Part shown: positions 19,606 to 64,000 of the stretch, in pieces
Layout of the letters: every line of letters begins with the position of its first letter
Numbering within the stretch: position 1 is the first letter of the stretch
Assembly (NCBI RefSeq): GCF_037392515.1
Contig: NC_090288.1
Coordinates: forward strand, 124,001 to 188,000
Direction of reading: 5' to 3'
Source of the DNA: Haliotis asinina
Taxonomy: Eukaryota; Mollusca; Gastropoda; Lepetellida; Haliotidae
Length of the DNA: 64,000 nt
The notes under the pieces: generated by a model
Told to the model about the DNA's origin: nothing
The model's input: only the letters and a program-made list of their open reading frames with translations
Database searches by the model: none
Translations under genes and position numbers: made by a program

Positions 19606-20145
19606 TGTATTACCTCACCAACTTCTAAATGCCTTTGAAGAATTTTAAATCGCGAAAGTGCACATTCGCTCGTACTTTTGAACGTGAAGGTTCATACCTG
19701 AAAGATTCCGAATGCTATTTAACTTACGCTCGCTTCCATGTGATGCACGCGACTTACGTACAACCATGACAACGGTGAGTAAACAGTCGCTGAAAATGGT
19801 GTTTTTGGCAATATTCAAGGATGTCATCTTGCGGAAATATTAGCTAATGGTAACCATGTCAACAGAATCCCTAAAGTGTTTATACTGCAGGTCAAATAAT
19901 TGTGTTATATGCGGATTTGTGATTGTGAAGAGATCTGTGTCAGTGACCTGAATATTTTGAAAGTCCCTGCGATCCCTAAATAGTAGCCGTTGTCTGATTG
20001 GTTAAATCTATTTAACCGTCTCACGTTTGATTGGATGGTCATTGGTCGCTCAAACGTTACCTGACGCGACCTTCTACTAGGTTTTGTTAGACTCAGTGGT
20101 GGAGTGTAACGAAATACACTGAGACTAAGGTTACTTAGACTGTGC
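19606..20145. other. Unassigned insertion within the LINE relic
   Basis: No coding motif was recognised. It separates the Penelope-like fragment from the LINE reverse transcriptase start. Confidence 0.4.
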
Positions 20146-23050: not shown

Positions 23051-23053
23051 AGG

Positions 23054-23180
23054 AAGATAAATGTTGTTAACTGGTCCCTTGGGGCCTATGGGTTGATGTA
23101 CCCTCAGGCTCAGGGAACAGAAATAAACATCAAAGGGCACATGACCCCATGTCCCTCTCGTGACCAGTGAACAACTTATA
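23054..23180. repeat. Foldback repeat, copy A
   Basis: Ends are inverted repeats: GTTGTTAACTGGTCCCTTGG at the left against the complement of CTCGTGACCAGTGAACAAC at the right. The same family is at 59238-59401. Internal sequences are also related (GTACCCTC, TTTATTTCTGTTCCCTGAG on the minus strand). Confidence 0.65.
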
Positions 23181-23559
23181 ATGTACAGATCGTAACTTCC
23201 TTGTACAGCATGTACACTCCTGTACTGTGGGTGTGAAATGGAGACTGAGTAATTCAAATGGTCATGTGTGGTTGTGCCACATGGTCACTTGCTACACACA
23301 GGTAATCAACACAACACAATGACAGGTAAGTGCCCTATGGCTACAAACAATGCAGCTTCCATTGTTACTGTGGCATATGAGAAACACAAACCAAACACAG
23401 CATACAAACCACTGTGGACATGAGCTTCAATCATGACTGATCCACAATACTCTTATAGAAATGAGGTACTTGCTGATATGTTACTGTGTGGGGCACTTGA
23501 TGCTCTGTATATCAGCTAACCTTTCTCGAGTCATTACATGACAGATAAAATAGATTGCT

Positions 23560-25713: not shown

Positions 25714-25857
25714 TTAGCAGCAACTGAAGTCCCACAGTTTCACAGTCTTGTCGTAAGACCCTGACACAATGATGAAATCATTGAACTGCAGACAAGTCAC
25801 TCCATCCTTGTGATTCTGTAGGGTGACCAGCCGCTGCCCTGTCTCCAGATTCCACAC
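25714..25857 (-). CDS. F-box/WD gene terminal exon (WD6 end, WD7)
   Basis: Acceptor TTTCCAG (minus strand), stop TAA at 25714-25716. Starts VWNLETGQRLVTLQ and encodes WD7 with NHKDGVTCLQF and SGSYDKTVKLWDF. Confidence 0.92.
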   Translation of the reverse strand: MWNLETGQRLVTLQNHKDGVTCLQFNDFIIVSGSYDKTVKLWDFSCC

Positions 25858-28800
25858 CTGGAAACAACACCATACACAGACAGCTCAACAAAACACAACA
25901 GACACTCAGACAGAATAAACACAGTTCAGCAAAATAAAGATATGGTCATGTCTACATGCTGTGTCTGTCTACTCTCACCCTGATGGTCATATCTACATAC
26001 TGTGTCTGTCTACTCTCACCCTGATGGTCATATCTACTGTCTACTCTCACCCTGATGGTCATATCTACATACTGTGTCTGTCTACCCTCACCCTGATGGT
26101 TATATCTACATACTGTGTCTGTCTACTCTCACCCTGATGGTCATATCTACATACTGTGTCTGTCTTCCCTCACCCTGATGGTTTTATCTACATACTGTGT
26201 CTGTCTACTCTCATCTTGATGGTCATGTCTACACACTGTGTCTGTTTACCCTCACCTTGAGTCTGTCTACCCTCAACTTGATGGTAATGTTTACATACTG
26301 TGTCTGTTTACCCTCACCTTAATGGTTTTGTCATCTGCTGCACTGACTAGACGCCAACTGTCCGCTTGAAGACATCTGGAAGTCAACATGGAGTGCAAAA
26401 TGAAATAAGGAACAAACAAACCTGCATTTATTTGTACATGGAAGCATTTATTTTACTGTTCGTAGGCTAACTTTTCCAGGTTGAGGAACACTGAACAGTA
26501 ACATTGAGCAAGTGAAGTATTCCAACCTGACAACCCCAGTGTGGCCTTCTGCTGCCTTCCAGTCTATGGTATTGATGCACTCGCCACTGTGGATATCCCA
26601 GAATTTCAGATTGCAGTCCAGGGAGCCACTAACGATACGGGTTGCGTCAAACTGCAGACATGTGACAGCGTCATGGTGGCCAGACAGGGTTATCATGCAC
26701 AACCCTTGGTAGTTCCATACCTGCACAAAAAGAGGGTGGGTATTATAACAATCATGGACACCTGCACACAAAGAGGGTGGGTACTACAACAATCATGGAC
26801 ACCTGCACACAAAGAGGGTGGGTATTATAACAATCATGGACCCCCTGCACACAAAGAGGGTGGGTATTATAACAATCATGGACACCTGCACACAAAGAGG
26901 GTTGGTATTATAACAATCATGGACACCTGCACACAAAGAGCGTCAGTATTACAAGAATCACAGACACCTGCACACAAAGAGGGTTGGTATTATAACAATC
27001 ATGGACACCTGCACACAAAGAGGGTTGGTATTATAACAACCATGGACACCTGCACACAAAGAGGGTTGGTATTATAACAACCATGGACACCTGCACACAG
27101 AGAGGGTCAGTATTATAACAATCATGGACACCTCCACACAAAGAGGGTTGGTATTATAACAATCATGGACCCCCTGCACACAAAGAGGGTGGGTAATATA
27201 ACAATCATGGACCCCCTGCACACAAAGAGGGTGGGTAATATAACAATCATGGACCCCCTGCACACAAAGAGGGTCAGTATTACAACAATCATGGACACCT
27301 GCACACAAAGAGGGTGGGTATTATAACAATCATGGACACCTGCAACCAAAGATGACACGTATTATAAGAGCTGTGGACACATGCACATATAGGGGATCGG
27401 TATTATAACAATCATGGACACCTGCACACAAAGAGGGTGAGTATTACAACAATCATGGACACCTGCACACAAAGAGGGTCAGTATTACAACAATCGTGGA
27501 CACCTGCAACCAAAGATGACACGTATTATAAGAGCTGTGGACACATGCACATATAGGGGATCGGTATTATAACAATCATGGACACCTGCACACAAAGAGG
27601 GTCAGTATTATAACAATCATGGACACCTCCACACAAAGAGGGTTGGTATTATAACAATCATGGACACCTGCAACAAAAGATGACACGTATTATAAGAGCC
27701 GTGGACACATACACATATAGGGGATCGGTATTATAACAATCATGAACACCTCCACACAAAGAGGGTCAGTATTACAACAATCATGGACACCTGCACACAA
27801 AGAGGGTGGGTATTATAACAATCATGGACACCTGCACACAAAGAGGGTGGGTATTATAACAATCATGGACACCTGCACACAAAGAAGGTGGGTATTATAA
27901 CAATCATGGACACCTGCACACAAAGAGGGTGGGTATTATAACAATCATGGACACCTGCACACAAAGAGGGGGGGTATTATAACAATCATGGACACCTGCA
28001 CACAAAGAGCGTCAGTATTACAACAATCATGGACACCTGCACACAAAGAGGGTGGGTATTATAACAATCATGGACCCCTGCACAAAAAGAGGGTGGGTAT
28101 TATAACAATCATAGACACCTGCACAAAAAGAGGGTGGGTATTACAACAATCATGGGCACCTGCACAAAAAGAGGGTTGGTATTATAACAATCATGGACAC
28201 CTGCACACAAAGAGGGTTGGTATTATAACAATCATGGACACCTGCAACCAAAGATGACACGTATTATAAGAGCCGTGGACACCTGCACACAAAGAGGGTG
28301 GGTATTATAACAATCATGGACACCTGCACACAAAGAGGGTGTCTATTACAACAATCATGGACACCTGCACACAAAGAGGGTGGGTATTACAACAATCATG
28401 GACACCTGCACACAAAGAGGGTGGGTATTATAACAATCATGGACCCCATGCACACAAAGAGGGTGGATATTATAACAATCATGGACATCTGCACACAAAG
28501 AGGGTGGGTATTACAACAATCATGGACACCTGCACACAAAGAGGGTGGGTATTATAACAATCATGGACCCCATGCACACAAAGAGGGTGGATATTATAAC
28601 AATCATGGACATCTGCACACAAAGAGGGTGGGTATTACAACAATCATGGACACCTGCACACAAAGAGGGTGGGTATTATAACAATCATGGACCCCCTGCA
28701 CACAAAGAGGGTTGGTATTAGAACAATCATGGACACCTGCAGAAAAAGAGGGTGGGTATTACAAGAATCATGGACCCCCTGCACAAAAAGAGGGTAGGTA

Positions 28801-31800
28801 TTATAACAATCATGGACACCTGCACAAAAAGAGGGTGGGTATTATAACAATCATGGACACCTGCACAAAAAGAGGGTGGGTATTATAACAATCATGGACC
28901 CCCTGCACACAAAGAGGGTTGGTATTAGAACAATCATGGACACCTGCAGAAAAAGAGGGTGGGTATTACAAGAATCATGGACCCCCTGCACAAAAAGAGG
29001 GTAGGTATTATAACAATCATGGACACCTGCACAAAAAGAGGGTGGGTATTACAAGAATCATGGACCCCCTGCACACAAAGAGGGTCGGGATTACAACAAT
29101 CATGGACACCTGCACAAAAAGAGGGGGGGTATTATAACAATCATGGACACCTGCACACAAAGAGCGTCAGTATTACAACAATCATGGACACCTGCACACA
29201 AAGAGGGTGGGTATTATAACAATCATGGACCCCTGCACAAAAAGAGGGTGGGTATTATAACAATCATAGACACCTGCACAAAAAGAGGGTGGGTATTACA
29301 ACAATCATGGGCACCTGCACAAAAAGAGGGTTGGTATTATAACAATCATAGACACCTGCAACCAAAGATGACACGTATTATAAGAGCCGTGGACACCTGC
29401 ACACAAAGAGGGTGGGTATTATAACAATCATGGACACCTGCACACAAAGAGGGTGGGTATTACAAGAATCATGGACCCCATGCACACAAAGAGGGTGTCT
29501 ATTACAACAATCATGGACACCTGCACACAAAGAGGGTGGGTATTATAACAATCATGGACACCTGCACACAAAGAGGGTGGGTATTATAACAATCATGGAC
29601 CCCATGCACACAAAGAGGGTGGATATTATAACAATCATGGACATCTGCACACAAAGAGGGTGGGTATTACAACAATCATGGACACCTGCACACAAAGAGG
29701 GTGGGTATTATAACAATCATGGACCCCCTGCACACAAAGAGGGTTGGTATTATAACAATCATGGACACCTGCACACAAAGAGGGTTGGTATTATAACAAC
29801 CATGGACACCTGCACACAAAGAGGGTTGGTATTATAACAATCATGGACACCTGCAGAAAAAGAGGGTGGGTATTACAAGAATCATGGACCCCCTGCACAA
29901 AAAGAGGGTGGGTATTACAACAATCATGGACACCTGCACACAAAGAGGGTGGGTATTATAACAATCATGGACATCTGCACACAAAGGGGATTGGTATTAT
30001 AACAATCATGGACACCTGCACACAAAGAGGGTTGGTATTATAACAATCATCGACACCTGCACACAAAGAGGGTGGGTGTTATAACAATCATGAACACCTG
30101 CACACAAAGTGGGTTGGTATTATAACAATCATGGACACCTGCACACAAAGAGGGTGGGTATTATAACAATCATGGACATCTGCACACAAAGGGGATTGGT
30201 ATTATAACAATCATGAACACCTGCAAACAAAGAGGGTTGGTATTATAACAATCATGAACACCTGCACACAAAGATGATATGTATTATAAGAGCCGTGGAC
30301 ATGTACACACAAAGGGGATTGGTATTATAACAATCATGGACACCTGCAACCAAAGATGGTACATATTACAACAACACAGAAGACCTACACACCAACATAC
30401 TGTAACATACTAAATACAGGATATGGAAAGCGACTCCTACCTTGATGGTGTTGTCACAGGATCCTGACACAATCTTGCTCTCGTTGAAGTGAACACATAA
30501 TACTGCTGCATTGTGACCTCTGAAACAGACACAATCTTGAGTGACATGTATTACAAACATAGGATGGATGTGGCAACATGCAGGATGGACGTGAAAACAT
30601 GGAGTGAGTGAGTGAGTTAGTTTTACGCTGCACTCAGCAATATTCCAGCTTATGGCGGCGTTTTGTAAATAATTGAGTCTGTACCAGACAATCAAGTGAT
30701 CAACAACATGAACATCGATCTGCACAATTGAGAACTGATGACATGTCAACCAAGTCAGCAAGCCTGACCACCCGATCCCGCCTCTTACTACAAGCACAGT
30801 CGCCTTTTATGGCAGCATGTGTTGCTGAAGGCCTAGTCTACCTCGGGACCTACACTTGTTAGGATGAACTTGACAGTCTGTAGAATGAACATAGCATGGA
30901 CATGACAACATGTAGGGTGAACATGTCAACATGCAGAGTGAGCATGACAACATGTAGGATGGACATGACAACAAGTAGTATAAGCATGACAACATGTAGG
31001 ATGAACATGTGCGATGGACATGACAACATGTAGTGTGAACTTCACAACCTGTAGGGTGGATATAACATGTAGGATGAACATGACAACATGTAGTGTGAAC
31101 ATGTTTGCATGTAGGATGGACATGACATGTAGGACGGACAGGGCAACAAGTAGGATGCACAAAACAACATGTAGAGCGATCATGAGAACAAGTAGGAATG
31201 ACATGACAATTTGTAGGAAGGACATGACAACATGTAGGATGGACATGGAAACATGTAGGATGGACAAGACAGCATTTAGGATGGATATGACATGTAGGAT
31301 GAACATGACAACATGTAGTGTGAACATGACTGTGTAGGATCAATATAACAAGATGTAGAATGGACATGTCAACATGTACAATGGACATGTCAACATGTAG
31401 GATTGATATGACAAGATGTATGATGAACATGTCAAAATGTAGGATGGATATGACAATATGTAGGATAAACATGTCAAAATGTAGGATGGACATGACAAGA
31501 TGTAGGATGGCCATGACAAGACATAGGATGGCTATGTCAACATGTAGAATGACCATGACAAGATGTAGGATGGACATGACAAGATGTAGGATGGACATGA
31601 CAAGATGTAGGATAGATATGTCAACATGTAGAATGACCATGACAAGATGTAGGATGGCCATGTCAAGATGTAGGATGGCCATGACAAGGTGTAGGATAGA
31701 TATGTCAATATGTAGGATGGACATGACAAGGTGTAGGATAGATATGTCAATATGTAGGATGGACATGACAAGATGTAGGATGGCCATGACAAGATGTAGG

Positions 31801-34800
31801 ATGGCCATGACAAGGTGTAGGATAGATATGTCAAGATGTAGGATGGATATGTCAAGATGTAGGATGGACATGACAAGATGTAGGATGGCCATGACAAGAT
31901 GTAGGATGGCCATGACAAGGTGTAGGATAGATATGTCAATATGTAGGATGGACATGACAAGGTGTAGGATAGATATGTCAATATGTAGGATGGACATGAC
32001 AAGATGTAGGATAGATATGTCAATATGTAGGATGGACATGACAAGATGTAGGATGGCCATGACAAGATGTAGGATGGCCATGACAAGGTGTAGGATAGAT
32101 ATGTCAATATGTAGGATGGACATGACAAGGTGTAGGATAGATATGTCAATATGTAGGATGGACATGACAAGATGTAGGATGGACATGTCAAGGTGTAGGA
32201 TAGATATGTCAATATGTAGGATGGCCATGACAAGGTGTAGGATAGATATGTCAATATGTAGGATGGACATGACAAGATGTAGGATGGCCATGACAAGATG
32301 TAGGATGGCCATGACAAGGTGTAGGATAGATATGTCAATATGTAGGATGGACATGACAAGATGTAGGATGGACATGTCAAGGTGTAGGATGGACATGACA
32401 AGATGTAGGATGGTCATGACAAGGTGTAGGATAGATATGTCAATATGTAGGATGGACATGACAAGATGTAGGATGGCCATGACAAGGTGTAGGATAGATA
32501 TGTCAATATGTAGGATGGACATGACAAGATGTAGGATGGCCATGACAAGGTGTAGGATAGATATGTCAATATGTAGGATGGCCATGTCAAGATGTAGGAT
32601 GGCCATGACAAGGTGTAGGATAGATATGTCAATATGTAGGATGGACATGACAAGATGTAGGATGGCCATGACAAGGTGTAGGATAGATATGTCAATATGT
32701 AGGATGGACATGACAAGATGTAGGATGGATATGTCAAGATGTAGGATGGACATGACAAGATGTAGGATGGATATGTCAAGATGTAGGATGGACATGACAA
32801 GATGTAGGATGGATATGTCAAGATGTAGGATGGACATGACAACACAATCAGGGAGCGTATGACGTGATGATGTTTCTGAGAGACTCCTTACCGTAGTGTT
32901 CTCCTACAGTTGCCTGTCTTAAGGTCCCACACTTTGAGTGTCTTGTCATATGAGCCACTGATCACCTTGTCATCATCTACCTGTGGAAGAAGTTAAATCT
33001 CCATGCCTCATCTGTTAAGTCTTTGAATGTCATTTAGAAGTGAAAATACATAAGAATGAAGATTTTTATGGATATCAACTTCTTTATGAGAGAACACAAC
33101 GTTTCGGAGTTAATGCTTACTCCTTCATCAGGTGATTGAGAAAGGGATACAGAGGTGTATTTATATGTACAGGTAAAACAATAACAAAGTAACAAGTGGA
33201 ATGAGTTAACGAGAGCTAGTATAAACAAGCACTGATAGGAAGCCGATAGTTAGGATAACAATGATGGAAGCCAATGGTTACAGTTGATCGGATATGTTTA
33301 CATAACACAGATACGGGGTAAGGACGATGTACATGATTGGGGATAAGGATGGAAGCCAATGGTGATACATTACGCATGATAGGATGATGTACATAACACA
33401 CGATAGGGGGTGAGCATGTTTACATGAGGGTTGATGATGTACAAACACAAGTAGGTAAGGATGTACTCGGGTAGACTGGCTATACATGAGTTACATAGAT
33501 AGAATGTACACAGATAGATGAGATTAATTTATCAATAAGTCCCAGGCACTTGGTAGGTACACTCCTAGGTCGCGGTTGATGGCTGGTTTCTGTCTCCGGA
33601 TCTCGATGGCCTCTTGCAGTTTCCTTTGGCGCCAGTTGTTGCTGTTGGTAGATAGTATCCTGGTGTCCTCCCATCGAACTGAGTGTTCAGGGTTCTTGAG
33701 AATGTGTTCAGAGATTGCCGATTTCTATTCGAGTTTCCTGACTGAGGTCTGATGTTCCTTCATTCTGGTGTTGATTGGTCTCAGCGTTTCTCCAATGTAT
33801 AGGTCGCCACAGTTGCAAGGGATCTGGTAGATGCATCAATAATTGTGAAAACCAGTAATCATCTAACTTTCCTGTTACGATGCCGGGACAACAACCTCAT
33901 TCCCAGAGGATTTCAACTGTCATCTCCTGTCCCTCACTCACCTGCCATCAACAAGATACTCCACAATGCCAGCACCAGAATAGTCAAGCACCAGATACAG
34001 CACCTACGCCGCCACAAGTCCCATCTCCAAAAAGACATTGAAACCAGCAGAAGCCACCTATAAGACACCCTCGAGTCTGACCTCTACCACAAGACCCAGT
34101 CCTTAGCAGAGAAGACCAAGCAGCACCTCCATGAGAAAGTGAAAACTACCCACATCACCAAGTTCACCCAGTTACAACGTCCTTCCACCTCCAACATTCG
34201 TGAAGCTGACAACAACATCACCAACCTCAAGACAGTCATCAACCTCAGCAGCAAGCCTCTCACACCATCTCAGACGTCCCTCCTTGCTAAAGGCCTGAAG
34301 TATGTCCCAGTCGCCGCCAAGATCAACACAGATGCCTTCATCACCAGCATTGAAAGTGGACTTCAACAACTGGCTCCCAATGGCAACGTAAACTACCTCC
34401 GACACCAGAGTATAGACACCATCAACCAAGCTCCCAAGCCCCGCCCCAACCTCACGCACCAAGAGAGACAGGCCATCACCGAACTCAAGAAGGATGACAG
34501 CATCACCATCACCGAAGCTGACAAGGGCAAAGCAGCAGTCATCATGGACACCCCGGAATTCCTCCAGCTCGTCAACAACAGCCTCTCAGACACCACCACC
34601 TACATCAACATCAAGAAAGATCCGACGGCCAGACTGGAAAGACAACACAAGAAAACCCTGAAGGACCTCCATGAGAAGAGAGAAATCAACGACATCATCT
34701 TCAACCAGCTGAACCCTATCAACTCCCAAGCCCCATACGGAAGAGCCACCATCAAGATCCACTAGAACCCGCCCAAAGCCCGGATCCTAGTCTGCTCAAG

Positions 34801-37800
34801 AGGTTCAGTTTTCTACAACACCGCCCAGTTCCTCACACGTCTCCTCGCTCCACTTGGCAAAGATGGCAAGTCCTACATCAGCGACTCTTCATCCTTTGTC
34901 AAACAGCTGAAAGAATCCAACCCCACAGGCACCATGGTCAGCTACGACGTCGTGGACCTCTTCACCAACATCCCACTAGAAGAAGCCCTGGACATCCTTC
35001 GCAGCAAGTTAGCCAACCGGATAGAAGACTTGGACACCCAGCTCACCATAGACAGCATCACCAACCTTGCCCGCAGCTGCTTTGACACCTCCTACTTCAC
35101 ATTCAATGGTAAGATATACAAGCAGATCCACGGTCTCCCCATGGGCTCACCTCTTTCTCCTCTCATTACAGAAATCTTCATGACCTCCTTCGAGGAAGCA
35201 GCCCTCTCCACAGCTCCGTTCCAGCCCCTCTGTTGGTACCGCAAAGTCGACGACACCTTCACCACCATCGCCTATGACAACGACCCCAATGAGCTCCTCA
35301 ACCACCTCAACAACCAACATCCAAGAATCAAGTTCACCATGGAGACTGAGACCAACCAACACCTGCCCTTTCTCGATGTATCCCTCCACACCACAGACGA
35401 TGGACTTAGAACCTCAGTTTACCGCAAGCCGACGCACACCGACCAGTACATCCACTACAACTCCTGCCACCATCTTCAGATCAAGCAAGCTATCATCGCC
35501 ACCCTTACCAGACGTGCCAAAGCCCTCTGCCACCCCAATGCCCTAAACAATGAACTGGACCACCTCAGAAAGACATTCACCACACTCAACGGTTACCCTC
35601 CCCAGCTCGTCACAGCCACCATCAACAAGACCCTCAAGGACCGAGAACCCCGCCCCAAACCTTCTCCATCACCCATCAGAGTAACCATACCCTACCTTGG
35701 CCCCATCAGTCATCAAATATCACGCCTCATCAAGACCAAAGCCAGCATCGATGTCACCTTCTCCAGTGGCAAGACCATCAAGACCTACCTAAAAGCCAAC
35801 GGTAAAGGACCCAGCTGTGAACACCCTAACCCGAGAGGATGCATCTACCAGATCCCTTGCAACTGTGGCGACCTATACATTGGAGAAACGCTGAGACCAA
35901 TCAACACCAGAATGAAGGAACATCAGACCTCAGTCAGGAAACTCGACCAGAAATCGGCCATCTCTGAACACATTCTCAAGAACCCTGAACACTCAATTCG
36001 ATGGGAGGACACCAGGATACTATCTACCAACAACAACAACTGGCGCCAAAGGAAGCTGCAAGAGGCCATCGAGATCCGGAGACAGAAACCAGCCATCAAC
36101 CGCGACCAAGGAGTGTACCTACCATGTGCCTGGGACTTATTGATAAATTAATCTCATCTATCTGTGTACATTCTATCTATGTAACTCATGTATAGCCAGT
36201 CTACCCGAGTACATCCTTACCTACTTGTGTTTGTACATCATCAACCCTCATGTAAACATGCTCACCCCCTATCGTGTGTTATGTACATCATCCTATCATG
36301 CGTAATGTATCACCATTGGCTTCCATCCTTATCCCCAATCATGTACATCGTCCTTACCCCGTATCTGTGTTATGTAAACATATCCGATCAACTGTAACCA
36401 TTGGCTTCCATCATTGTTATCCTAACTATCGGCTTCCTATCAGTGCTTGTTTATACTAGCTCTCGTTAACTCATTCCACTTGTTACTTTGTTATTGTTTT
36501 ACCTGTACATATAAATACACCTCTGTATCCCTTTCTCAATCACCTGATGAAGGAGTAAGCATTAACTCCGAAACGTTGTGTTCTCTCATAAAGAAGTTGA
36601 TATCCATAAAAATCTTCATTCTCATCTGTTAAGCTCAGCAGTGTCCAATAGGGACATTACCAGGTACCAAGAACAGTGGCTTATTCAAAATTCAATAAAG
36701 CAAGACAAACCACAGGGGGTGGGGCACTGTCTTGCTTTTACTGAAAAGTAAAAGCCACAATAAGTGCTATTTACTGCTAGCTACTATACATGCTATTTCC
36801 TGGCAGCCACAAAAAGTGGACTTTACTGGCTGTCACAATAAGCTGACTTTCCTGGCAACCACAATAAGCTGACTTTACTAGCAGCCACAATAAGCTGGTT
36901 TTACTGGCAGCCACAATAAGCGCTGTTTGATGACAGACACAAAAAGTTCGCTTTACTGGCAGCCACAATAAGCGCTATTTACTGACAGCCACAGTAAGCT
37001 GGTTTTACTGGCAGCCACAATAAGCACTAATTACTGCCAGCCGTAATAAGTGCCCTTTACTGACAGCCACAATATGCTGGCTTTACTGGCAGCCACAATA
37101 TGCTGACTATACTGGCAACCACAATAAGTCTGCTTTACTGGCTGGAACATTATGCTGGCTTTACTGGCAGCCACAATAAGTCTGCTTTACTGGCAGAAAT
37201 AATGAGGGGGTTCACTGACGGCCAATAACACACAATTCTACATTTGCTTCAGTTATCATCTGAACTGTTCACCTCCATAAACATCAAGAAAGCTTTCCAA
37301 ACACATTACCTGTAGGCATCTGACTGTGTCTGTGTGTCCAATCATAGTGACTTTACAGGCAATGCTTGACCACGAATCTCTGGTGGACAAGTCCCAAACC
37401 TGTAAAAGACATCAGAATTCATTGAAAACACACACCTGTAGTTTTGAAGGCTCTGGTGTACGTTTGATAGTTTTGGTCGCTCTGGTGTATGGTTGATAGT
37501 TTTGATGGCTCTGGTGTACGGTTGATAGTTTTGGTGGCTCTGGTGTATAGTTGATAGTTTTGGTGGCTCTGGTGTATGGTTGATAGTTTTGGTGGCTCTG
37601 GTGTATGGGTGATAGTTTTGGTGGCTCTGGTGTACAGTTGATGCTGTTTGGGGAGATTGGAGGCATGTTGTCACGGGTGCTGCTTGGGGCGCTCTGGCAT
37701 GGGAGCCGACTGGGGGTGTTGTCTTGGGAGCCGATGAGGAAGGGTAGGGGGGTATGTGTGTTGTCATGGGTGCCAGTTGGCATCTGGGTGCCGGTGTAAG

Positions 37801-52800: not shown

Positions 52801-55800
52801 AGTCTTACTGACAGATATTAGGAAGGTTTTGACTTTTGCTCCGAAAACGAAACACACCTCTCACTTTTGAGACCAAGTCTGAAACGTTTCAATGAAAACT
52901 GAGAAAATGATAAATAAAAAAAACCTGTAAATAGCAAAAGGCACCACTAGGTTCTGACTGATGTATCTACCAAGTTTTGCAGAAAAATATTGAATGGTTT
53001 TGGAGTTATGCTCCAGATACGATGCAAACCTCACCCATTAGACTAAGACCAAAACGTTCAATAGAAAAACAACAAAAAGATGAAAAAGCCAAAAATCTGT
53101 AAATAGCTAAAGGCACAGCCATTTTTTCAGTTTATTATATCTACCAAATTTGGTCTACAAATTTTCCAGAATTATGCTCAGGAAACAAAATTATTGCAGA
53201 CGGTCAGACGAGGCGTCGACTATCATTTTGATAACAAATGTACATCATCTGTCTTTTACCAAGACGACTTGTCCTTCTCAACCACAGCCCCTCCAACAAT
53301 TTGTCCTTCTCAACAACCATCCCTCCTACACCTTGTCTGTGTCATTCTCCACACCTCCAACACCTTGTCTTTGTCAGTCTCCACCCCTCCAACACCTTGT
53401 CTTTGCCAACCACCACTCCTCCAACACCATGCCTTTGTTAGTCTCCACCCCTCCAACACCTATTCTTTTGTCCTTCTCAATCATCACCCCTCCAAAACCT
53501 TGTAACCTTGTCTTTGTAACCTGCACCCCTCGAACACCTCGTCTTTGCAGCCTCCACCCCTCCAACACCTTGTCTTTGTCAGCCTCCACCCCTCCAACAC
53601 CTTGTCTTTGTCAACCTCCACCCCTCCAACACATTGTCTTTGTAATCTGCACCCCTCCAACACCTCGTCTTTGCAACCTCCACCCCTCCAACACCTTGTC
53701 TTTGTCAGCCTCCACCCCTCCAACACCTTGTCTTTGCAACCTGCACCCCTCCAACACCTTGTCTTTGCAACCTCCACCCCTCCAACATCTTGTCTTTGCA
53801 ACCTGCACCCCTCCAACACACTGTCTTTGTGAGCCTCCAAGCCTCCAACACCTTGTCTTTGCAGCCTCCACCCCTCCAACACCATGTCTTTGCAGCCTCC
53901 ACCACTCCAACATCTTGTCTTTGCAACCTCCACCCCTCCAACACCTTGTCTTTGTCAGCCTCCACCCCTCCAACACCTTGTCTTTGCCAACCACCACTCC
54001 TCCAACACCATGCCTTTGTTAGTCTCCACCCCTCCAACACCTATTCTTTTGTCCTTTTCAATCATCACCCCTCCAAAACCTTGTCCTTCTCAACCATCAT
54101 GGTGCAATACCTTGACTTTATCAGCCTCTACACCTCCAACACCTTGATTCTGTTAGCCCCCAACCCTCCAATACATTGTCTTTGTCGGCCTCCACCCCTC
54201 CAACATCTTGTCTTTGCAACCTGCACCCCTCCAACACCTTGTCTTTGCAACCTCCACCCCTCCAACACCTTGTCTTTGTCAGCCTCCACCCCTCCAACAC
54301 ATTGTCTTTGCAGCTCCACCCCTCCAACACATTGTCTTCGCAACCTCCATCCCTTCAACACCTTGTCTTTGTCAGCCTCCACCCCTCCAACACCTTGTCT
54401 TTGTCAGCCTCCACCCCTCCAACACCTTGTCTTTGCAGCCTCCACCCCTCCAACACCTTGTCTTTGCAACCTCCACCCCTCCAACACCTTGTCTTTGTCA
54501 GCCTCCACCCCTCGTCTTTGTAACCTGCACCCCTCCAAAACCTCCTCTTTGAAACTTCCACCCCTCCAACACTTTGTCTTTGTCAGCCTCCACCCCTCCA
54601 ACACCTTGTCTTTGTCAGCCTCCACCCCTCCAACACATTGTCTTTGCAACCTCCACCCCTCCAACATCTTGTCTTTGCAACCTGCACCCCTCCAACACAC
54701 TGTCTTTGTGAGCCTCCAAGCCTCCAACACCTTGTCTTTGCAACCTCCACCCCTCCAACACCATGTCTTTGCAGCCTCCACCCCTAACAACACCTTGTCT
54801 TTGCAACCTCCACCCCTCCAACACCTTGTCTTTGTCAGCCTCCACCCCTCCAACACCTTGTCTTTGCCAACCACCACCACTCCAACACCATGCCTTTGTT
54901 AGTCTCCACCCCTCCAACACCTATTCTTTTGTCCTTTTCAATCATCACCCCTCCAAAACCTTGTCCTTCTCAACCATCATGGTGCAATACCTTGACTTTA
55001 TCAGCCTCTACACCTCCAACACCTTGATTCTGTTAGCCTCCACCCCTCCAACACCTTGTCTTTGTCAGCCTCCACCCCTCCAACACCTTGTCCTTCTCAA
55101 CCACCACCAACAACCAACATGTTAATCTCCCCTCAATGGACGTTTCTCCTCCAAACGCCATATCTCATCTCTCACTGTAACTAGGCACTTACCTTTACTG
55201 TCTTGTCTGATGATCCACTGACAATACGAGTGTCGTCAAACTGAACACATGAAATACCTGAGGAAAGACATGGTATATAAGTTTGCTGCAGCTTCTCCTT
55301 TTACCTTTTGTATAAGGGTCATCAAATTGTTAGGCCCACAAACATTGCAAATGACTTTCTCTAAACAAGTTATATGTACACAGAGAACCAGATGAGCTGC
55401 CAAAATCAGTAACTCATGAAGGCATGAACAATCACTTGTTTTCTTCTAAACATATTTTATTCGCAGAGAAAAGTATTAGGAACAAGTTCTCCACCTTTTA
55501 ATACGCTCTCCTTGGTATGTATATAGATAACTCAGATTCCCGCAACTAAAGAGGACAGATAGTGGACAAGAAAGCAGTGCAAGTGAAAAAGAGATAGAGC
55601 TTTTATATGCTACTCAAAAAAGAAATGCATAGGCAGTATTTTTCCATTTAACTTTTTGAATTTGAATTACTGGCGTCTATGTAATCAGTATATCTATGGT
55701 GAACACTGTCTGCAAACATTTCCGAGTTTGAATCCAATGTCATTGAGGACAATTTGTCAAAACACACCAAAATCTGTTTTCCTCAAAAAATACAATAAAT

Positions 55801-58800: not shown

Positions 58801-59896
58801 GGGTACCTCTTCTCATCTGCTGTCTAGTCATCCTGGACCTATTCTGTTCAGTTGTTGCTTCCCTATATTACAGCTACCTTTAGTGAGGTGTCCTTGACAG
58901 TACCTTACCTTCAGTGATGTGTCCCCTTGACAATAGCTTAACTTCAGGCAGGTGTCCTTGACAGAGGCTTACCTTCAATGAGGGGTCATTGACTTACGTG
59001 AAGTGTCCCTTGACATTAGCTTACCTTGAGTGAAGTGTCCTTGACAGAGACTTACCAGCAGTGAGGTGTCCTTCACAGAGACTTACCAGCAGTGAGGCGC
59101 CATATGGCATTGATTTACTCTCGGGGATTGTGGCTTCTCCACAGCAGCACTTCCTTTAAGTATGGCTTGAATCAAATGCTGCTTCTCTTGATAGAGGCTT
59201 ACCATGATTGAGGCTTCTCTTCAGGGTGGCTACACTATAAGTTGTTCACTGGTCACGAGGGGTTCATGGGCTCAAGTAACCTCGAAATTTGTTTATGTTC
59301 CCCGAGCCCACAGGTCTAATGTACCCTCTAGGTTTGTTTATGTTCCCCGAGCCCACAGGCCCATGTACCTCGAGGGATCAGTGAACAACGTATTTATCTT
59401 ACCGAACATCTGAGTCTTCCTTAGAATGTGAGGCAAATCGTTTCGTCCCCATTGTGCAGACGAAAGCAAGCAAAATAAATTTAATGTTATCTCCCACTCA
59501 CTTTCAATCACAAAACATCGGTAACTTCCATGAATCATGCGTATTTCAATGTTATTTGAGACAAAGAAGTACTTCCATAAAGAACCAAATGAGTTTGGCA
59601 TTCCCAACAGTGTACATTGGAAAAAATACATTGTCTGTAAGCATGGTACGATGAAAAAAAATACAAGGGCGCTTAGCCAATCGGTAAGTGATATTCATGT
59701 GTGAGGTAAGATAATAGAGAATAGGCCTCTTAGACTGTGGTTACCTGAATGATGATAACCAACAAACGACTTCTACTGGGTGTGCTTTCAAGGAGTGTTA
59801 CTTACCCTGAGTGTGACCTTCGAATGTGCGGACTGTACATCTACCTCTCAGCCAGTTGTTCCTCAACCTGAATCTCTCCGCGAACACATTCTTCCA
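25714..59896 (-). CDS. F-box/WD40 repeat protein, 3' nine exons (5' end outside the window)
   Basis: Exons in coding order: 59806-59896, 55193-55257, 51835-51960, 37310-37399, 32892-32980, 30441-30519, 26527-26720, 26318-26375, 25714-25857. They join to 936 nt (311 residues plus stop), all GT-AG. Residues 1-26 (WKNVFAERF, NNWLRGRCTVRTF) match the end of an F-box/linker region. Seven WD repeats start at about residues 27, 69, 115, 155, 194, 239 and 279, each with GH or NH, (I/V)xCxQF, (I/V)SGSxDKTxK and (V/L)W(D/N). The protein ends KLWDFSCC. Seven repeats make one beta-propeller. FBXW7/beta-TrCP/MET30-type proteins recruit phosphorylated substrates to an SCF ubiquitin ligase; I infer this role but cannot name the orthologue. 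The visible gene spans over 34 kb, nearly all minisatellite introns. The F-box exon is expected beyond 64000. Confidence 0.9.
25925..26326 (-). repeat. 41-bp minisatellite seeded on a splice donor
   Basis: About ten units of 41 bp on the minus strand, pattern ACCATCAGGGTGAGAGTAGA then CAGACACAGTATGTAGATA. The first unit starts inside the coding exon: the exon's last nine bases ACCATTAAG are followed directly by the donor GTGAGGGTAAACAGACACAG. Later units keep ACCATC(A/G)(A/G)G and (G/A)TGAG. The array fills most of the last intron. Confidence 0.93.
26318..26375 (-). CDS. F-box/WD gene exon (WD6 core)
   Basis: 58 nt completing Arg245, then CLQADSWRLVSAADDKTIK. Acceptor CTTCCAG, donor ATTAAG|GTGAGG. 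The WD signature has AADDKTIK where the other repeats have GS(x)DKT. Confidence 0.92.
26527..26720 (-). CDS. F-box/WD gene exon (WD4 end, WD5)
   Basis: 194 nt: VWNYQGLCMITLS, then GHHDAVTCLQF, SGSLDCNLKFWDI, and GHTGVV starting WD6. Acceptor TTTTTGTGCAG, donor GTCAG|GTTGGA. The acceptor is also the first unit of the neighbouring 41-bp array. The following intron is only 151 nt and repeat-free. Confidence 0.92.
26720..30395 (-). repeat. 41-bp minisatellite of acceptor-like units
   Basis: About 85-90 units of 41 bp. On the minus (gene) strand each carries CCCACCCTCTTTGTGTGCAG followed by GTGTCCATGATTGTTATAAT. The first unit ends exactly at the true acceptor of the 26527-26720 exon. Variant units (CAACCAAAGATGACACG on plus) recur. 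The array runs to about 45 nt from the upstream donor at 30441, so it is practically the whole intron. Apparent plus-strand proteins across it are artefacts. Confidence 0.95.
30441..30519 (-). CDS. F-box/WD gene exon (WD4 core)
   Basis: 79 nt: completes Arg154, then GHNAAVLCVHFNESKIVSG and SCDNTIK. Acceptor CTGTTTCAG, donor ATCAAG|GTAGGA. Confidence 0.92.
30557..32843. repeat. 21-bp minisatellite with 63-bp higher-order unit
   Basis: Units of 21 bp, ATGTAGGATGGACATGACAA plus G, run from about 48 nt after the donor at 32892 to about 40 nt before the acceptor at 30520. From 31660 onward three variants alternate (GGACATGACAAG, GGCCATGACAAG, AGATATGTCAAT) as a 63-bp higher-order unit. The left part (30557-31330) is more worn and is interrupted by a SINE. 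The apparent proteins of 676 and 500 residues on opposite strands are artefacts of the 21-bp unit. Confidence 0.94.
30602..30855 (-). mobile_element. tRNA-related SINE with GAGT/CACT tail, abalone-type
   Basis: Plus strand starts GGAGTGAGTGAGTGAGTTAG and ends near TGTTGCTGAAGGCCTAG; box order places it on the minus strand. Worn 21-bp units lie on both sides, so it inserted into the array. Confidence 0.8.
32892..32980 (-). CDS. F-box/WD gene exon (WD3 core)
   Basis: 89 nt: VDDDKVISGSYDKTLK, then VWDLKTGNCRRTL and two bases of Arg154. Acceptor TTCCACAG, donor CTACG|GTAAGG. Confidence 0.92.
33053..33837 (-). repeat. Left inverted arm of the Penelope-like element
   Basis: Reverse complement of 35838-36622, with only a few substitutions. 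It therefore includes an antisense copy of the C-terminal coding sequence (GIY-YIG end) and of the 3' noncoding end. Confidence 0.93.
33101..33131 (-). ncRNA. Hammerhead-ribozyme-like core, left arm
   Basis: Mirror copy of the right-arm core, on the minus strand, identical in its conserved bases. Confidence 0.55.
33839..36151 (+). pseudogene. Penelope-like RT/GIY-YIG protein with two nonsense codons
   Basis: One frame throughout, interrupted by TAA at 34061-34063 and TAG at 34763-34765; no frameshift. Order: LTFLLRCRDNNLIPRGF near the start; ITEADKGKAAVIMD (about 34510-34551), a hallmark of the family; APYGRATIKIH just before the TAG; RT motifs VSYDVVDLFTNIPL, HGLPMGSPLSPL and YRKVDDTF (about 35240-35263, where YVDD is more usual); FLDVSL; then GIY-YIG nuclease CNCGDLYIGETLRP (about 35860-35901), KEHQTSVRKLDQKSAISEH and INRDQGVYLP. 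About 770 codons, close to full length for the family. 34934-36151 (405 codons) is fully open and covers the RT core plus the nuclease. Confidence 0.9.
35838..36622 (+). repeat. Right arm of the Penelope-like element
   Basis: 3' 785 bp of the element: end of the coding region to 36151, then about 470 bp of noncoding sequence. The inverted partner is 33053-33837. Confidence 0.93.
36544..36574 (+). ncRNA. Hammerhead-ribozyme-like core, right arm
   Basis: CTGATGA (36544-36550), one A, stem GGAGT (36552-36556) pairing with ACTCC (36565-36569) across an 8-nt loop, then GAAAC. Hammerhead ribozymes are known in Penelope-like elements. The extra A before the stem and the unresolved stems I and III keep this a candidate. 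Confidence 0.55.
36735..37203. repeat. 26-bp minisatellite
   Basis: About 18 units containing TTTACTGGCAGCCACAATAA with variable ends. It starts about 107 nt after the donor of the 37310-37399 exon in gene direction. Confidence 0.88.
37310..37399 (-). CDS. F-box/WD gene exon (WD2 end, WD3 start)
   Basis: 90 nt, phase 0 at both ends: VWDLSTRDSWSSIACKVTMI, then GHTDTVRCLQ. Acceptor CTTTTACAG, donor CTACAG|GTAATG. Confidence 0.92.
37438..37640. repeat. 29-bp minisatellite
   Basis: Seven units of GGCTCTGGTGTATGGTTGAT plus AGTTTTGGT, next to the acceptor side of the large intron. A Pro/His/Gln-rich minus-strand reading of 29 residues per three units is an artefact. Confidence 0.88.
37817..51800. 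repeat. 42-bp minisatellite, about 330 copies (14 kb)
   Basis: Unit: TTTGCTCCTAGATACTGCTG then TGTTCAAGCATGGAGCATACAG. It occupies nearly the whole 14.4-kb intron between exons 51835-51960 and 37310-37399, starting about 35-45 nt after the donor. Because 42 is 3 x 14 and the unit lacks stops in several frames, both strands read open for up to 1,848 codons (14-residue repeats); these are artefacts. Variant positions define a higher-order block of 117 units, repeated at about 38064-42976, 42977-47889 and partly beyond. Confidence 0.97.
51835..51960 (-). CDS. F-box/WD gene exon (WD1 end, WD2)
   Basis: 126 nt, phase 0: VWNIRTNAPWSVQTLV, then GHSGTVRCLHL and SGSSDKTIK. Acceptor GCATGTACAG, donor ATCAAG|GTAAGA. 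Confidence 0.93.
52150..53130. repeat. About 174-bp satellite-like tandem repeat
   Basis: Landmark GAGACTAAGT(C/T)(C/T)GAA recurs at about 52176, 52349, 52522, 52696, 52871 and 53041 (170-175 bp spacing). Each unit also has CGTTTCCATG(G)AAA, a stretch like AGCAAAAGGCACCACTT, and CTGCCAAG(T/A)TTT. About 5.5 worn copies in the intron left of the 55193-55257 exon. Confidence 0.85.
53275..55110. repeat. 31-32-bp pyrimidine-rich minisatellite
   Basis: About 57 units of CCTCCACCCCTCCAACACCT then TGTCTTTGTCAG or TGTCTTTGCAA. Plus strand is mainly C/T, minus strand G/A. A block of about 880 bp is duplicated (GTGCAATACCTTGACTTT at about 54102 and 54981). It starts about 80 nt after the donor of the 55193-55257 exon. 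The many Ser/Pro/Leu-rich open frames are artefacts. Confidence 0.94.
55193..55257 (-). CDS. F-box/WD gene exon (WD1 core)
   Basis: 65 nt: completes Gly31, then ISCVQFDDTRIVSGSSDKTV and K. Acceptor TTTCCTCAG, donor GTAAAG|GTAAGT. Confidence 0.93.
55262..55600 (-). other. F-box/WD intron, unique stretch
   Basis: No element or exon recognised between the acceptor and the Tc1 relic. Confidence 0.5.
55607..56966 (+). mobile_element. Tc1-like transposon relic with terminal inverted repeats
   Basis: Ends match imperfectly as inverted repeats (left TGCTACTCAAAAAAGAAATG; right end complement TTACTCAGAAAAAGAAAGGC). Inside, a transposase starts at 55923 (MPRLTEAQRNNAIGNLEAGD, an N-terminal helix-turn-helix start). 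Catalytic traces follow: VISSDESCY (about 56225), FQHDNARPHTVRITRDF (about 56490-56550), and LDLNPTEHLWDELDHCV (about 56585-56640). Frameshifts and stops inactivate it. It lies in the intron between the 59806 and 55193 exons. Confidence 0.85.
56967..57935. other. F-box/WD intron, nothing recognised
   Basis: Starts with a short AT dinucleotide run (56966-56980). No coding motif was seen in the remaining sequence. Confidence 0.4.
57940..58385 (-). pseudogene. DIRS-like retrotransposon RNase H fragment
   Basis: Minus-strand frames read YVDAPLQGWGAHLNNGVAAG, then after a frameshift HINQLEMKAVIHAIHHWL and MIHTDNSTVAFYINKQG. The D-A-S-x-x-GWGA type start, E in LEMKAV and D in HTDNST correspond to RNase H catalytic residues, and the wording is typical of DIRS-type pol proteins. 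Only this domain is left. Confidence 0.7.
58400..58860. other. F-box/WD intron, nothing recognised
   Basis: No repeat or coding motif identified. Confidence 0.4.
58865..59230 (-). repeat. About 33-bp degenerate repeat containing GGTAAG
   Basis: On the gene (minus) strand units read like GTCAAGGACACCTCACTGAA then GGTAAGC(T/C)(A/T). Most copies keep the donor-like GGTAAG hexamer. It lies about 580 nt downstream of the 59806 donor. Confidence 0.75.
59238..59401. repeat. Foldback repeat, copy B
   Basis: GTTGTTCACTGGTCACGAGG at the left is matched by the inverted CGAGGGATCAGTGAACAAC at the right. The middle has two direct copies of TTTGTTTATGTTCCCCGAGC. Same family as 23054-23180. Confidence 0.75.
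59806..59896 (-). CDS. F-box/WD gene exon (F-box/linker end, WD1 start)
   Basis: 91 nt: WKNVFAERFRLRNNWLRGR, then CTVRTFEGHTQ and the first base of Gly31. Acceptor TTTGTTGTAG, donor CAGG|GTAAGT. The opening resembles the LW(K/R)x(L/V) end of an F-box and the NW..G linker of FBXW proteins. It is the most 5' exon inside the window. Confidence 0.85.
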
Positions 59897-59934
59897 CTAC
59901 AACAAAGAGTTTCTTTAAGCAGCATTTTAGATGT

Positions 59935-60358
59935 TGATGAGGATGAAGTCTTTTATGGATACACAACTTCTTGCAGTGGATGTGACATTTTGGTGTAGAT
60001 CCTAACACTGTTACCAAGCAAATAGGGAAAGGTTGGTGTTGACATGAGGCTTGTGATAAGAGATGACAAGACCAGTGGGCAAGGGTCGCATATTCTTGAT
60101 CAGGCTTGATTAGCTGATCGTAAGTAGGAAGGATGTAATAACATTGATGGCCTTGTCATCTCCTATCACAACAAGCCTCATGTCAACACACTGTGCATCA
60201 ACCTCCTCTACTGCAGAAAACTCACATCCCCGCTAGGTATATATTCCTGCATATGTTGTGCATTGTTTGCTTGATAACGGTGTTTGAATCTACACCGAAA
60301 CATCACATCCACTGCAAGAAAGAAGTTATATCCATAAAAGACTTCATCCTCACAAGAA
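59935..60358. mobile_element. Palindromic non-autonomous element with Penelope-like ends
   Basis: The left end GATGAGGATGAAGTCTTTTA and the right end TAAAAGACTTCATCCTCAC are inverted copies, as are the inner arms (TGTTGACATGAGGCTTGTGA at 60037 against its complement near 60170-60190). The right arm carries TTGATAA, stem CGGTGT/ACACCG, GAAAC (60271-60301) and AAAGAAGTTATATCCATAAA, the same plan as the Penelope-like ends. No coding sequence. Confidence 0.75.
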
Positions 60359-60399
60359 TGAGAACAAGAAACATGAAAGTCCACATCCACAGTGCCAAC

Positions 60400-63300
60400 T
60401 TTAACATTGTCTACATCAATAATGCCTTCCTGAGCATTGTCTACATCAATACTGCCTACCTGAGCATTGTCTACATCAATACTGCCTATGTCTACATCAA
60501 TACTGCCTACCTGAGTATTGTCTACATCAATGCTGCCTACCTCAACACTGTCTACATCAATACTGCCTACCTGAGTATTGTCTACATCAATACTGCCTAC
60601 CTCAACATTGTCTACATCAATACTGCCTACCTGAGTATTGTCTACATCAATACTGCCTACCTGAGCATCAGTACTGACTACCTGAGTATTGTCTACATCA
60701 CTACTGCCTTCCTGAGTATTGTCTACATCAATACTGCCTACCTGAGCATTGTCTACATCAATACTGCCTACCTGAGCATTGTCTACATCAATATTGCCTA
60801 CCCGAGCATCAGTACTGCCTACCTGAGTATTGTCTACATCACTACTGCCTACCTGAGCATTGTCTACATCAGTACTGCCTACCTGAGCATTGTCTACATC
60901 AATATTGCCTACCTCAACACTGTCTACATCAATATTGCCTACCTCAACACTGTCTACATCAATAATGCCTACATCTACATCAATACTGCCTACCTGAGCA
61001 TTGTCTACATCAATATTGCCTACCTGAGCATTGTCTACATCAATACTGCCTACCTCAACACTGTCTACATCAATATTGCCTACCTCAACACTGTCTACAT
61101 CAATAATGCCTACATCTACATCAATACTGCCTACCTGAGCATTGTCTACATCAATATTGCCTACCTGAGCATTGTCTACATCAATAATGCCTACCTCAAC
61201 ACTGTCTACATCAATATTGCCTACCTTAACACTCTCTACATCAATACTGCCTACCTTAACACTGTCTACATCAATATTGCCTACCTCAACACTGTCTACA
61301 TCAATAATGCCTACGTCTACATCAATACTGCCTACCTGAGCATTGTCTACATCAATATTGCCTACCTCAACACTGTCTACATCAATATTGCCTACCTTAA
61401 CACTGTCTACATCAACATTGCCTACCTCAACACTGTCTACATCAATAATGCCTACATCTACATCAATACTGCCTACCTGAGCATTGTCTACATCAATAAT
61501 GCCTACCTCAACACTGTCTACATCAATACTGCCTACCTTAACACTGTCTACATCAATACTGCCTACATCTACATCAATACTGCCTACCTGAGCATTGTCT
61601 ACATCAATATTGCCTACCTCAACACTGTCTACATCAATAATGCCTACATCTACATCAATACTGCCTACCTGAGCATTGTCTACATCAATAATGCCTACCT
61701 CAACACTGACTACATCAATACTGCCTACCTTAACACTGTCTACATCAATACTGCCTACCTTAACACTGTCTACATCAATATTGCCTACCTCAACACTGTC
61801 TACATCAATATTGCCTACCTTAACACTCTCTACATCAATACTGCCTACCTTAACACTGTCTACATCAATATTGCCTACCTCAACACTGTCTACATCAATA
61901 TTGCCTACCTTAACACTGTCTTCATCAATATTGTCTACCTTAACACTGTCTTCATCAATATTGCCTACCTTAACACTGTCTTCATCAATATTGCCTACCT
62001 TAACACTGTCTACATCAATATTGCCTACCTCAACACTGTCTACATCAATAATGCCTACATCTACATCAATACTGCCTACCTGAGCATTGTCTACATCAAT
62101 AATGCCTACCTCAACACTGTCTACATCAATATTGCCTACCTTAACACTCTCTACATCAGTACTGCCTACCTTAACACTGTCTACATCAATATTGCCTACC
62201 TCAACACTGTCTACATCAATATTGCCTACGTCTACATCAATACTGCCTACCTGAGCATTGTCTACATCAATATTGCCTACCTCAACACTGTCTACATCAA
62301 TAATGCCTACGTCTACATCAATACTGCCTACCTGAGCATTGTCTACATCAATAATGCCTACCTCAACACTGTCTACATCAATATTGCCTACATCTACATC
62401 AATACTGCCTACCTGAGCATTGTCTACATCAATATTGCCTACCTGAGCATTGTCTACATCAATAATGCCTACCTCAACACTGTCTACATCAATATTGCCT
62501 ACCTTAACACTCTCTACATCAATACTGCCTACCTTAACACTGTCTACATCAATATTGCCTACCTCAACACTGTCTACATCAATAATGCCTACGTCTACAT
62601 CAATACTGCCTACCTGAGCATTGTCTACATCAATATTGCCTACCTTAACACTGTCTACATCAATATTGCCTACCTTAACACTGTCTACATCAATATTGCC
62701 TACCTCAACACTGTCTACATCAATAATGCCTACATCTACATCAATACTGCCTACCTGAGCATTGTCTACATCAATAATGCCTACCTCAACACTGTCTACA
62801 TCAATACTGCCTACCTTAACACTGTCTACATCAATACTGCCTACATCTACATCAATACTGCCTACCTGAGCATTGTCTACATCAATACTGCCTACCTCAA
62901 CACTGTCTACATCAATAATGCCTACATCTACATCAATACTGCCTACCTGAGCATTGTCTACATCAATAATGCCTACCTCAACACTGTCTACATCAATACT
63001 GCCTACCTCAACACTGTCTACATCAATACTGCCTACATCTACATCAATACTGCCTACCTGAGCATTGTCTACATCAATAATGCCTACCTCAACACTGTCT
63101 ACATCAATATTGCCTACATCTACATCAATACTGCCTACCTGAGCATTGTCTACATCAATAATGCCTACCTCAACACTGTCTACATCAATAATGCCTACGT
63201 CTACATCAATACTGCCTACCTGAGCATTGTCTACATCAATAATGCCTACCTCAACACTGTCTACATCAATATTGCCTACCTTAACACTCTCTACATCAAT

Positions 63301-64000
63301 ACTGCCTACCTTAACACTGTCTACATCAATATTGCCTACCTCAACACTGTCTACATCAATATTGCCTACCTTAACACTGTCTTCATCAATATTGTCTACC
63401 TTAACACTGTCTTCATCAATATTGCCTACCTTAACACTGTCTTCATCAATATTGCCTACCTTAACACTGTCTACATCAATATTGCCTACCTCAACACTGT
63501 CTACATCAATAATGCCTACATCTACATCAATACTGCCTACCTGAGCATTGTCTACATCAATAATGCCTACCTCAACACTGTCTACATCAATATTGCCTAC
63601 CTCAACACTCTCTACATCAGTACTGCCTACCTTAACACTGTCTACATCAATATTGCCTACCTCAACACTGTCTACATCAATATTGCCTACGTCTACATCA
63701 ATACTGCCTACCTGAGCATTGTCTACATCAATATTGCCTACCTCAACACTGTCTACATCAATAATGCCTACGTCTACATCAATACTGCCTACCTGAGCAT
63801 TGTCTACATCAATAATGCCTACCTCAACACTGTCTACATCAATATTGCCTACCTTAACACTGTCTACATCAATACTGCCTACCTTAACACTGTCTACATC
63901 AATATTGCCTACCTCAACACTGTCTACATCAATATTGCCTACCTTAACACTGTCTTCATCAATATTGTCTACCTCAACACTGTCTTCATCAATATTGCCT
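60400..64000. repeat. 30-bp / 21-bp minisatellite, runs off the right edge
   Basis: Main unit TGCCTACCTCAACACTGTCT then ACATCAATAT (30 bp), mixed with a 21-bp shortened unit (TGCCTACATCTACATCAATAC) and the variant CCTGAGCATTG. Larger blocks recur (CTTCATCAATATTGTCTACC at 61920 and 63381, 1,461 bp apart). On the gene strand the CCTGAGC variant reads GCTCAGGTAGGC. It lies in the intron 5' of the 59806-59896 exon. Ser/Thr/Leu-rich open frames are artefacts. Confidence 0.95.

Follow-up and report, generated by a model that had tools for sequence, protein, structure and literature searches.

Minisatellite arrays in the introns of an FBXW7-like gene of Haliotis asinina, two of them tandem copies of a splice junction

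The window analysed here, a stretch of 64,000 nucleotides of Haliotis asinina contig NC_090288.1, contains nine exons of an FBXW7-like gene on its minus strand, running from E1 (59896-59806) to E9 (25857-25714). The joined exons form a single open frame of 311 residues with a stop at its end, and all 8 introns have GT-AG ends. The architecture is that of an FBXW7-like F-box/WD protein, in which the linker after the F-box is followed by WD repeats (seven WD40 stretches in the 311 residues); the F-box itself lies upstream of the exons seen. The protein matched FBXW7 of known structure (chain 2ovp_B, E 1.1e-98, aligned from query residue 1), the top match in the structure list being a designed propeller. 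It could be aligned without gaps to a relative, with 255 of 311 residues identical (82%), and with one gap to sea-urchin FBXW7 (77% identity). The exon joins, including those at the arrays of introns E6/E7 and E8/E9, are thus right, and the exon model is sound. In addition, the conserved reading frame makes undisturbed, regular splicing likely. The coordinates of the exons, the tandem arrays and the mobile elements are given in Table 1.

Table 1. Exons of the FBXW7-like gene, tandem arrays and mobile elements in the window (a slash marks a splice junction)
Feature	Position	Strand	Description
Exon E1	59806..59896	-	Linker after F-box and first WD residues; donor CAGG/gtaagt
Exon E2	55193..55257	-	
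Exon E3	51835..51960	-	
Exon E4	37310..37399	-	
Exon E5	32892..32980	-	
Exon E6	30441..30519	-	
Exon E7	26527..26720	-	Acceptor is last unit of array If
Exon E8	26318..26375	-	Last 9 nt and donor are first unit of array Ih
Exon E9	25714..25857	-	With stop codon
Array Iup	60403..64000	-	Upstream of E1; unit of 30 bp in about 126 copies, truncated by the window edge; sense strand with 98 AGGTAGGC donor-like sites
Array Ia	58875..59221	-	Intron E1/E2; unit of 31 bp, regular over 58875-59097; 6 GGTAAG sites; weakly resembles donor E1
Array Ib	53259..55108	-	Intron E2/E3; 32-bp unit; sense strand G-rich
Second E2/E3 array	52170..53116	-	174-bp unit (TRF 52170-53022, similarity to 53116); polypyrimidine-ACAG/GT in some copies
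Array Ic	37825..51796	-	Intron E3/E4; 42-bp unit, about 333 copies
Array Ic2	37439..37642	-	Intron E3/E4; 29-bp unit; includes CAAAACTATCAA (12 nt shared exactly with the end of E3)
Array Id	36753..37196	-	Intron E4/E5; 26-bp unit
Array Ie	30892..32842	-	Intron E5/E6; 21-bp unit; resumes at 30550-30601 past SINE-like insertion
Array If	26719..30374	-	Intron E6/E7; 41-bp unit, about 88 copies, each copying 3' splice site; 60 CAG/GT, the last being the true acceptor
Array Ih	25942..26326	-	Intron E8/E9; 41-bp unit copying exon end and donor; 8 strong donors in a row, led by the true one
Reverse-transcriptase element	33020..36620	+	Intron E4/E5; RT ORF 34766-36148; 13-bp target-site duplication 33007-33019 and 36621-36633
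SINE-like insertion in array Ie	30602..30855		78% copy at 14685-14943
Interspersed repeat between donor E1 and Ia	59231..59714		Relative at 22583-23185

Arrays were called with Tandem Repeats Finder (TRF) over the window, and gaps were taken between the exon ends and the array edges given by TRF; all arrays come from one assembly. Seven of the eight complete introns hold one or two arrays (two each in E2/E3 and E3/E4), further arrays lie outside the gene, and the eighth complete intron, which is free of arrays, is 151 nt long. An initial annotation of the window had already noted this exception, and TRF recovered the arrays that it listed at the same places; missing from it were Ic2 (beside the E3/E4 acceptor), Iup and the 174-bp array. 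Its distances from donor to array agreed with ours within a few bases for E8 (0 nt, the Ih array entering the exon by 9 nt), E5 (49 nt), E4 (113 nt), E3 (38 nt) and E2 (84 nt). For E6, where the outermost units are degenerate, we measured 66 nt rather than 45 nt, and for E1, where 580 nt had been given, 584 nt to a degenerate piece and 708 nt to the regular 31-bp array. Equally short gaps on the acceptor side of several introns had been left out.

Some introns consist of almost nothing but array, as had been observed before: the share is 98% in E3/E4 and E6/E7. As a share of non-mobile intron length, arrays make up 82-98% in Ib, Ic, Ie, If and Ih, 62% in Id and 5% in Ia. After subtraction of arrays and recognised mobile elements, introns Ib to Ih measure 435, 259, 271, 115, 66, 151 and 84 nt, respectively, and 3841 nt remain in intron E1/E2. 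The earlier statement that every large intron carries an array is partly circular, since Ib to Ih would be only 66-435 nt long without arrays and mobile elements. Within Ic, 39645-44243 recurs at 44558-49156 (4.6 kb, 4913 bp apart, at most 10 mismatches), which could be the result of a recent unequal exchange or an assembly artefact. Because the unit of this array is 42 bp, 37412-51830 is open in several frames on both strands (up to 1855 codons), which could mislead gene predictors.

Two arrays, Ih and If, are tandem copies of their own splice junction. Ih starts inside exon E8 and repeats the coding end together with the donor, the true junction ACCATTAAG/GTGAGGGTAAACAGACACAG recurring as ACCATCAGG/GTGAGAGTAGACAGACACAG, with 7 decoy donors. 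Its unit matched its own donor with a score of 21 (0 of 2000 shuffles as high), and the continuation of the array 9 nt into E8 gave a wraparound score of 46, against a shuffle maximum of 17 (200 shuffles). The 9 copied bases encode Thr-Ile-Lys of a WD motif that is conserved in the relative, indicating that the array was copied from the exon. Array If consists of about 88 units that read CCCACCCTCTTTGTGTGCAG/GT, the final one being the true acceptor, CCCACCCTCTTTTTGTGCAG/GT; the unit equals the acceptor at 20 of 22 positions, with 2 more from the alignment (score 20, 0 of 2000 shuffles as high). The 3' splice site is repeated over 3.7 kb, 59 decoy CAG/GT preceding the true one; 37 of the 59 spacings between CAG/GT are exactly 41, and in 39 of the 60 sites the proportion of pyrimidines from -15 to -3 is 0.75 or higher. 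In a 40-nt junction matrix (16 arrays against 17 junctions), If and Ih reached 22 and 25, respectively, and the other sense-strand values were at most 15. In both arrays the unit includes an exon end with the adjoining splice site (9 coding nt and the donor in Ih, the acceptor and 2 exon nt in If) and the units carry AG/GT signals (the 60 CAG/GT of If and 8 donors of Ih), as in the so-called mirages of amphioxus. Since the spliced protein is conserved and a 41-bp unit would shift the frame, the exon-most copy must presumably be the true site.

A junction origin is firm in only these 2 of 9 tested arrays. The units of Ib, Ic, Id and Ie matched neither the donor nor the acceptor of their own intron. 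Tests against the own junction gave p<=0.03 in 4 of 17 cases, and tests against other junctions or the other strand in 14 of 289. The 12-nt match of Ic2 to the end of E3 is exact (p 0.002 and 0.006), but the array is found next to the acceptor, 14 kb away from E3. Ia resembles donor E5 (p 0.008) more closely than the donor of its own intron, E1 (p 0.03), and may therefore simply look donor-like. The unit of Iup, the donor of which is outside the window, did not match its own (E1) acceptor; its resemblance to acceptor E3, with which it has nothing to do (score 15, p 0.03), indicates how noisy such comparisons are. The 174-bp array, possibly a decayed acceptor copy, weakly resembles the E3 acceptor (p 0.075), with polypyrimidine-ACAG/GT in several units. 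When 17 flank regions were searched for degenerate continuation of the arrays, the donor side of Ih and the acceptor side of Ie stood out (0 of 200 shuffles each). Continuation was weak on the acceptor side of Ib (p 0.016, 60 shuffles), on the acceptor sides of Ic2 and If and on the donor side of Ia (p 0.025-0.035), and the remaining flanks among the 17 gave p values of at least 0.05. The sense units of Iup (8.6), Ia (11.0) and Ih (8.5), scored with a donor matrix that was assumed and not derived, fall within the range of the true donors (4.4-12.5). Donor score alone proves little, because antisense or control units (Ie, If and Ic2 antisense) also reached shuffle p values of 0.006-0.012.

The units of the arrays listed before are 41, 41, 21, 26, 42, 32 and 31 bp long, and those of two arrays added here 29 bp and 30 bp. 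None of 72 comparisons between them (36 pairs, both strands; shuffles, here as in the other tests, of single bases within one unit) reached p<=0.01, with 0.72 expected, and the smallest p was 0.023. Relatedness of the units was rejected on this basis, and the independent birth of each array, as proposed in the initial annotation, is supported.

It had further been proposed that the arrays are born by a process tied to the stretch just past the donors. Placement between donor and acceptor was tested six ways on n=7 introns, with corrections that were picked after the data had been seen. In the raw data, 6 of the 7 introns had their array closer to the donor, and the mean relative position was 0.20 (p 0.0024). 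The mean rose to 0.295 (p 0.029) when second arrays were joined to the first in their intron and mobile elements were kept, and to 0.315 (p 0.045) when recognised mobile elements were removed and arrays left unjoined. With both corrections it was 0.41 (p 0.20), the donor being the closer site in 5 of the 7 introns; the mean became 0.47 (p 0.40) when intron E1/E2 was omitted and 0.46 (p 0.36) when the intron of a fasciclin gene in the same window (see below) was added. The corrected median gaps are 66 nt (donor) and 84 nt (acceptor).

In the raw data the acceptor side is lengthened by elements and arrays that arrived separately. The mobile element in E4/E5 is flanked by a 13-bp target-site duplication; the empty intron measures 715 nt, and the distances from its array to the two splice sites are 113 and 158 nt. 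Ie is split by a SINE-like repeat in E5/E6, beyond which the array continues and stops 30 nt short of the acceptor. The second array of E3/E4 comes to within 39 nt of its acceptor, and the array of E6/E7 runs right up to the splice site. Of the donor-side gap in E1/E2, the interspersed repeat makes up 484 nt, and the acceptor-side stretch is not accounted for by recognised elements. The preference for the start of the intron largely vanishes after accounting for mobile elements and second arrays, and array fill accounts for most of the apparent donor placement. A weak donor bias may be left, but it hinges on array delimitation (p 0.03-0.045 with one correction, 0.20 with both). When an array fills its intron, donor distance alone carries little information, and the tempting error of relying on it is corrected here.

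Starting from what is directly observed, namely the array anatomy, the junction copies, the exon model, the unrelated units and the mobile-element insertions, we propose, with a probability of about two in three, that short introns were inflated by tandem duplication in place between their splice sites. The FBXW7-like gene would have started with introns of approximately 70-300 nt, and in almost every intron a stretch of 20-42 bp would have duplicated in tandem in place and grown to 7-333 copies, presumably via slippage and unequal exchange. Exons and minimal splice signals would set the limits of this growth, so that an array comes to fill the space between donor and acceptor, with approximately 100 nt or less left on either side. 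For two introns at least, the seed would have straddled a junction and given a mirage: the last 9 coding bases of E8 with the donor in Ih, and the polypyrimidine tract with CAG/GT of the E7 acceptor in If, the exon-most site being the one that would be used. The remnants of introns Ib to Ih argue for inflation in place, as they are comparable in scale to the 151-nt array-free intron. The unexplained 3841 nt of intron E1/E2 argue against short ancestral introns, and the donor bias that persists with only one of the two corrections, like the small number of arrays with a firm junction copy, also counts against the proposal. We think it rather unlikely that introns of this genome grow mainly by mirages, with tandem duplication seeding preferentially at splice junctions and the arrays close to donors and acceptors in the other introns being old mirages with junction copies decayed beyond recognition; if this were true, splice junctions would be hotspots of minisatellite birth, shaping the evolution of intron size.

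A process just downstream of donors (transcription, R-loops or replication slippage) would account for the raw placement and for what remains of it with a single correction, and the sense strands of Ib and Iup are strongly G-rich. However, the placement signal does not survive both corrections, If grows from the acceptor, and the array of the fasciclin gene is nearer its acceptor. R-loops would require a G-rich sense strand; sense G-skew was +0.56 in Iup, -0.04 in Ia, +0.68 in Ib, +0.09 in the second E2/E3 array, -0.05 in Ic, -0.60 in Ic2, +0.13 in Id, -0.48 in Ie, -0.05 in If and +0.30 in Ih. With no common sign over these ten arrays, R-loops, which the initial annotation had suggested, were rejected as a general cause. 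A donor-linked process seems quite improbable. Alternatively, the genome may be rich in minisatellites and the long introns those that chanced to gain one, the gene being not special. Array density supports this, being 0.26 per kb for the gene region and 0.27 per kb elsewhere in the window (period >=15, TRF score >=100, overlapping rows merged by hand, n=17), as does the 27-bp intronic minisatellite described in a TSSK1-like gene of abalone (PMC6905558). Per kb of non-array DNA, however, the densities are 0.89 (gene region) and 0.30 (p 0.035), and chance gain offers no account of units that copy their own splice junction; we regard it as unlikely. This background reading and inflation in place overlap.

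It is also conceivable that the arrays made the introns, by duplication of an AGGT-bearing exon stretch that yielded new introns (Rogers model), the arrays being remnants. AG/GT is present in the units of Ih, If, Ia and Iup, and the model has been described for amphioxus globins (PMC3087553) and, with 188 cases, in a review (PMC3443670), but Ib, Ic, Id and Ie have no junction copy, and for this gene we hold it to be very improbable. Finally, the repeated splice sites might be functional decoys or recursive splice sites under selection. The donor-like motif is kept somewhat better than other columns in Ih (0.953 vs 0.899, rank 4 of 41 windows) and Iup (0.944 vs 0.829, rank 9 of 30). There is no sign of selection on inner copies in the largest case, If (CAGGT 0.927 vs 0.931, rank 30 of 41), or in Ia (0.842 vs 0.859), and use of an inner copy of a 41-bp unit shifts the frame, so that such a function is hardly credible.

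Mirages, tandem copies of 5' or 3' exon-intron boundaries with splicing intact, have been described in amphioxus for Adh3, the globins BflGb6 and BflGb9, troponin C and PGBD5; AG/GT is found in many units, and intron gain has been suggested (PMC3087553, PMC3902484). As described there, they are like Ih and If in being minisatellite-like copies that span the boundary, with AG/GT in the units. The globin mirages have 3-6 units of approximately 150-160 bp and those of Adh3 units of 10-72 bp, whereas here about 88 copies of the acceptor junction extend over 3.7 kb. Unlike in the amphioxus cases as described, further introns of this gene hold arrays that lack a junction copy, and our case is known from sequence alone. 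Of the length instability between alleles or tissues that marks mirages, the near-identical 4.6-kb duplication in Ic may be a hint, unless it is an assembly fault. Intron gain by tandem genomic duplication of AGGT also copies splice signals (PMC3443670); in that account one duplication creates an intron, whereas existing introns were apparently enlarged here. Human internal tandem repeats with units of approximately 30 bp at exon-intron boundaries of duplicated genes alter introns as well (PMC2812944), but are described as having about 4 copies, 160 bp on average, in recent paralogs, against up to 333 copies here. The 27-bp minisatellite of the Haliotis discus hannai TSSK1-like gene, located in intron 3 and length-polymorphic, is an ordinary intronic one, with no splice-junction copy mentioned in the portion of the source referred to here (PMC6905558). 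Among the literature matches listed, in the portions that we refer to, there was no report of junction-copying arrays in a mollusc.

Mirages being a known kind, what is unusual here is the copy number, and that further introns of this gene contain unrelated arrays alongside. If inflation in place holds, junction-copying minisatellites would not be confined to amphioxus and humans, and a gene could carry competing splice sites by the dozen (here 59 decoy acceptors over 3.7 kb) with its protein conserved. The gene would then be a natural test bed for the choice of the spliceosome among near-identical sites, and also for intron growth via in-place tandem duplication versus mobile elements. In a human interferon-induced gene, minisatellite units reportedly act as splice donors, several of which are used (a 1995 study), whereas the donor repeats described here have been seen in genomic DNA only.

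The ORF of the element in intron E4/E5 matched RVT_1 (E 6.9e-8), and we take this element to be Penelope-like. It has inverted end repeats (33059-33134 and 36541-36616), and related pieces are present at 18674-19606. Both ends of 59936-60352 match these end repeats, and this stretch is probably a short internal-deletion derivative of the element; minus this stretch, Iup would end approximately 90 nt from acceptor E1. On the plus strand, at 3921-6246, lies a gene whose second exon frame matches a Fasciclin domain (E 7e-10); in its intron, 4147-5965 according to splice sites set by eye, a 30-bp array is found 118 nt from the acceptor and 747 nt from the donor. No Pfam family was found for the first fasciclin exon frame, a Tc1-like ORF (56087-56473) and 18663-19532. 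A DDE_3 transposase frame is present at 8771-9676, and its C-terminal half recurs 4 kb on, at 12912-13388, with apparently the same protein sequence, which looks like a recent duplication or a partial copy.
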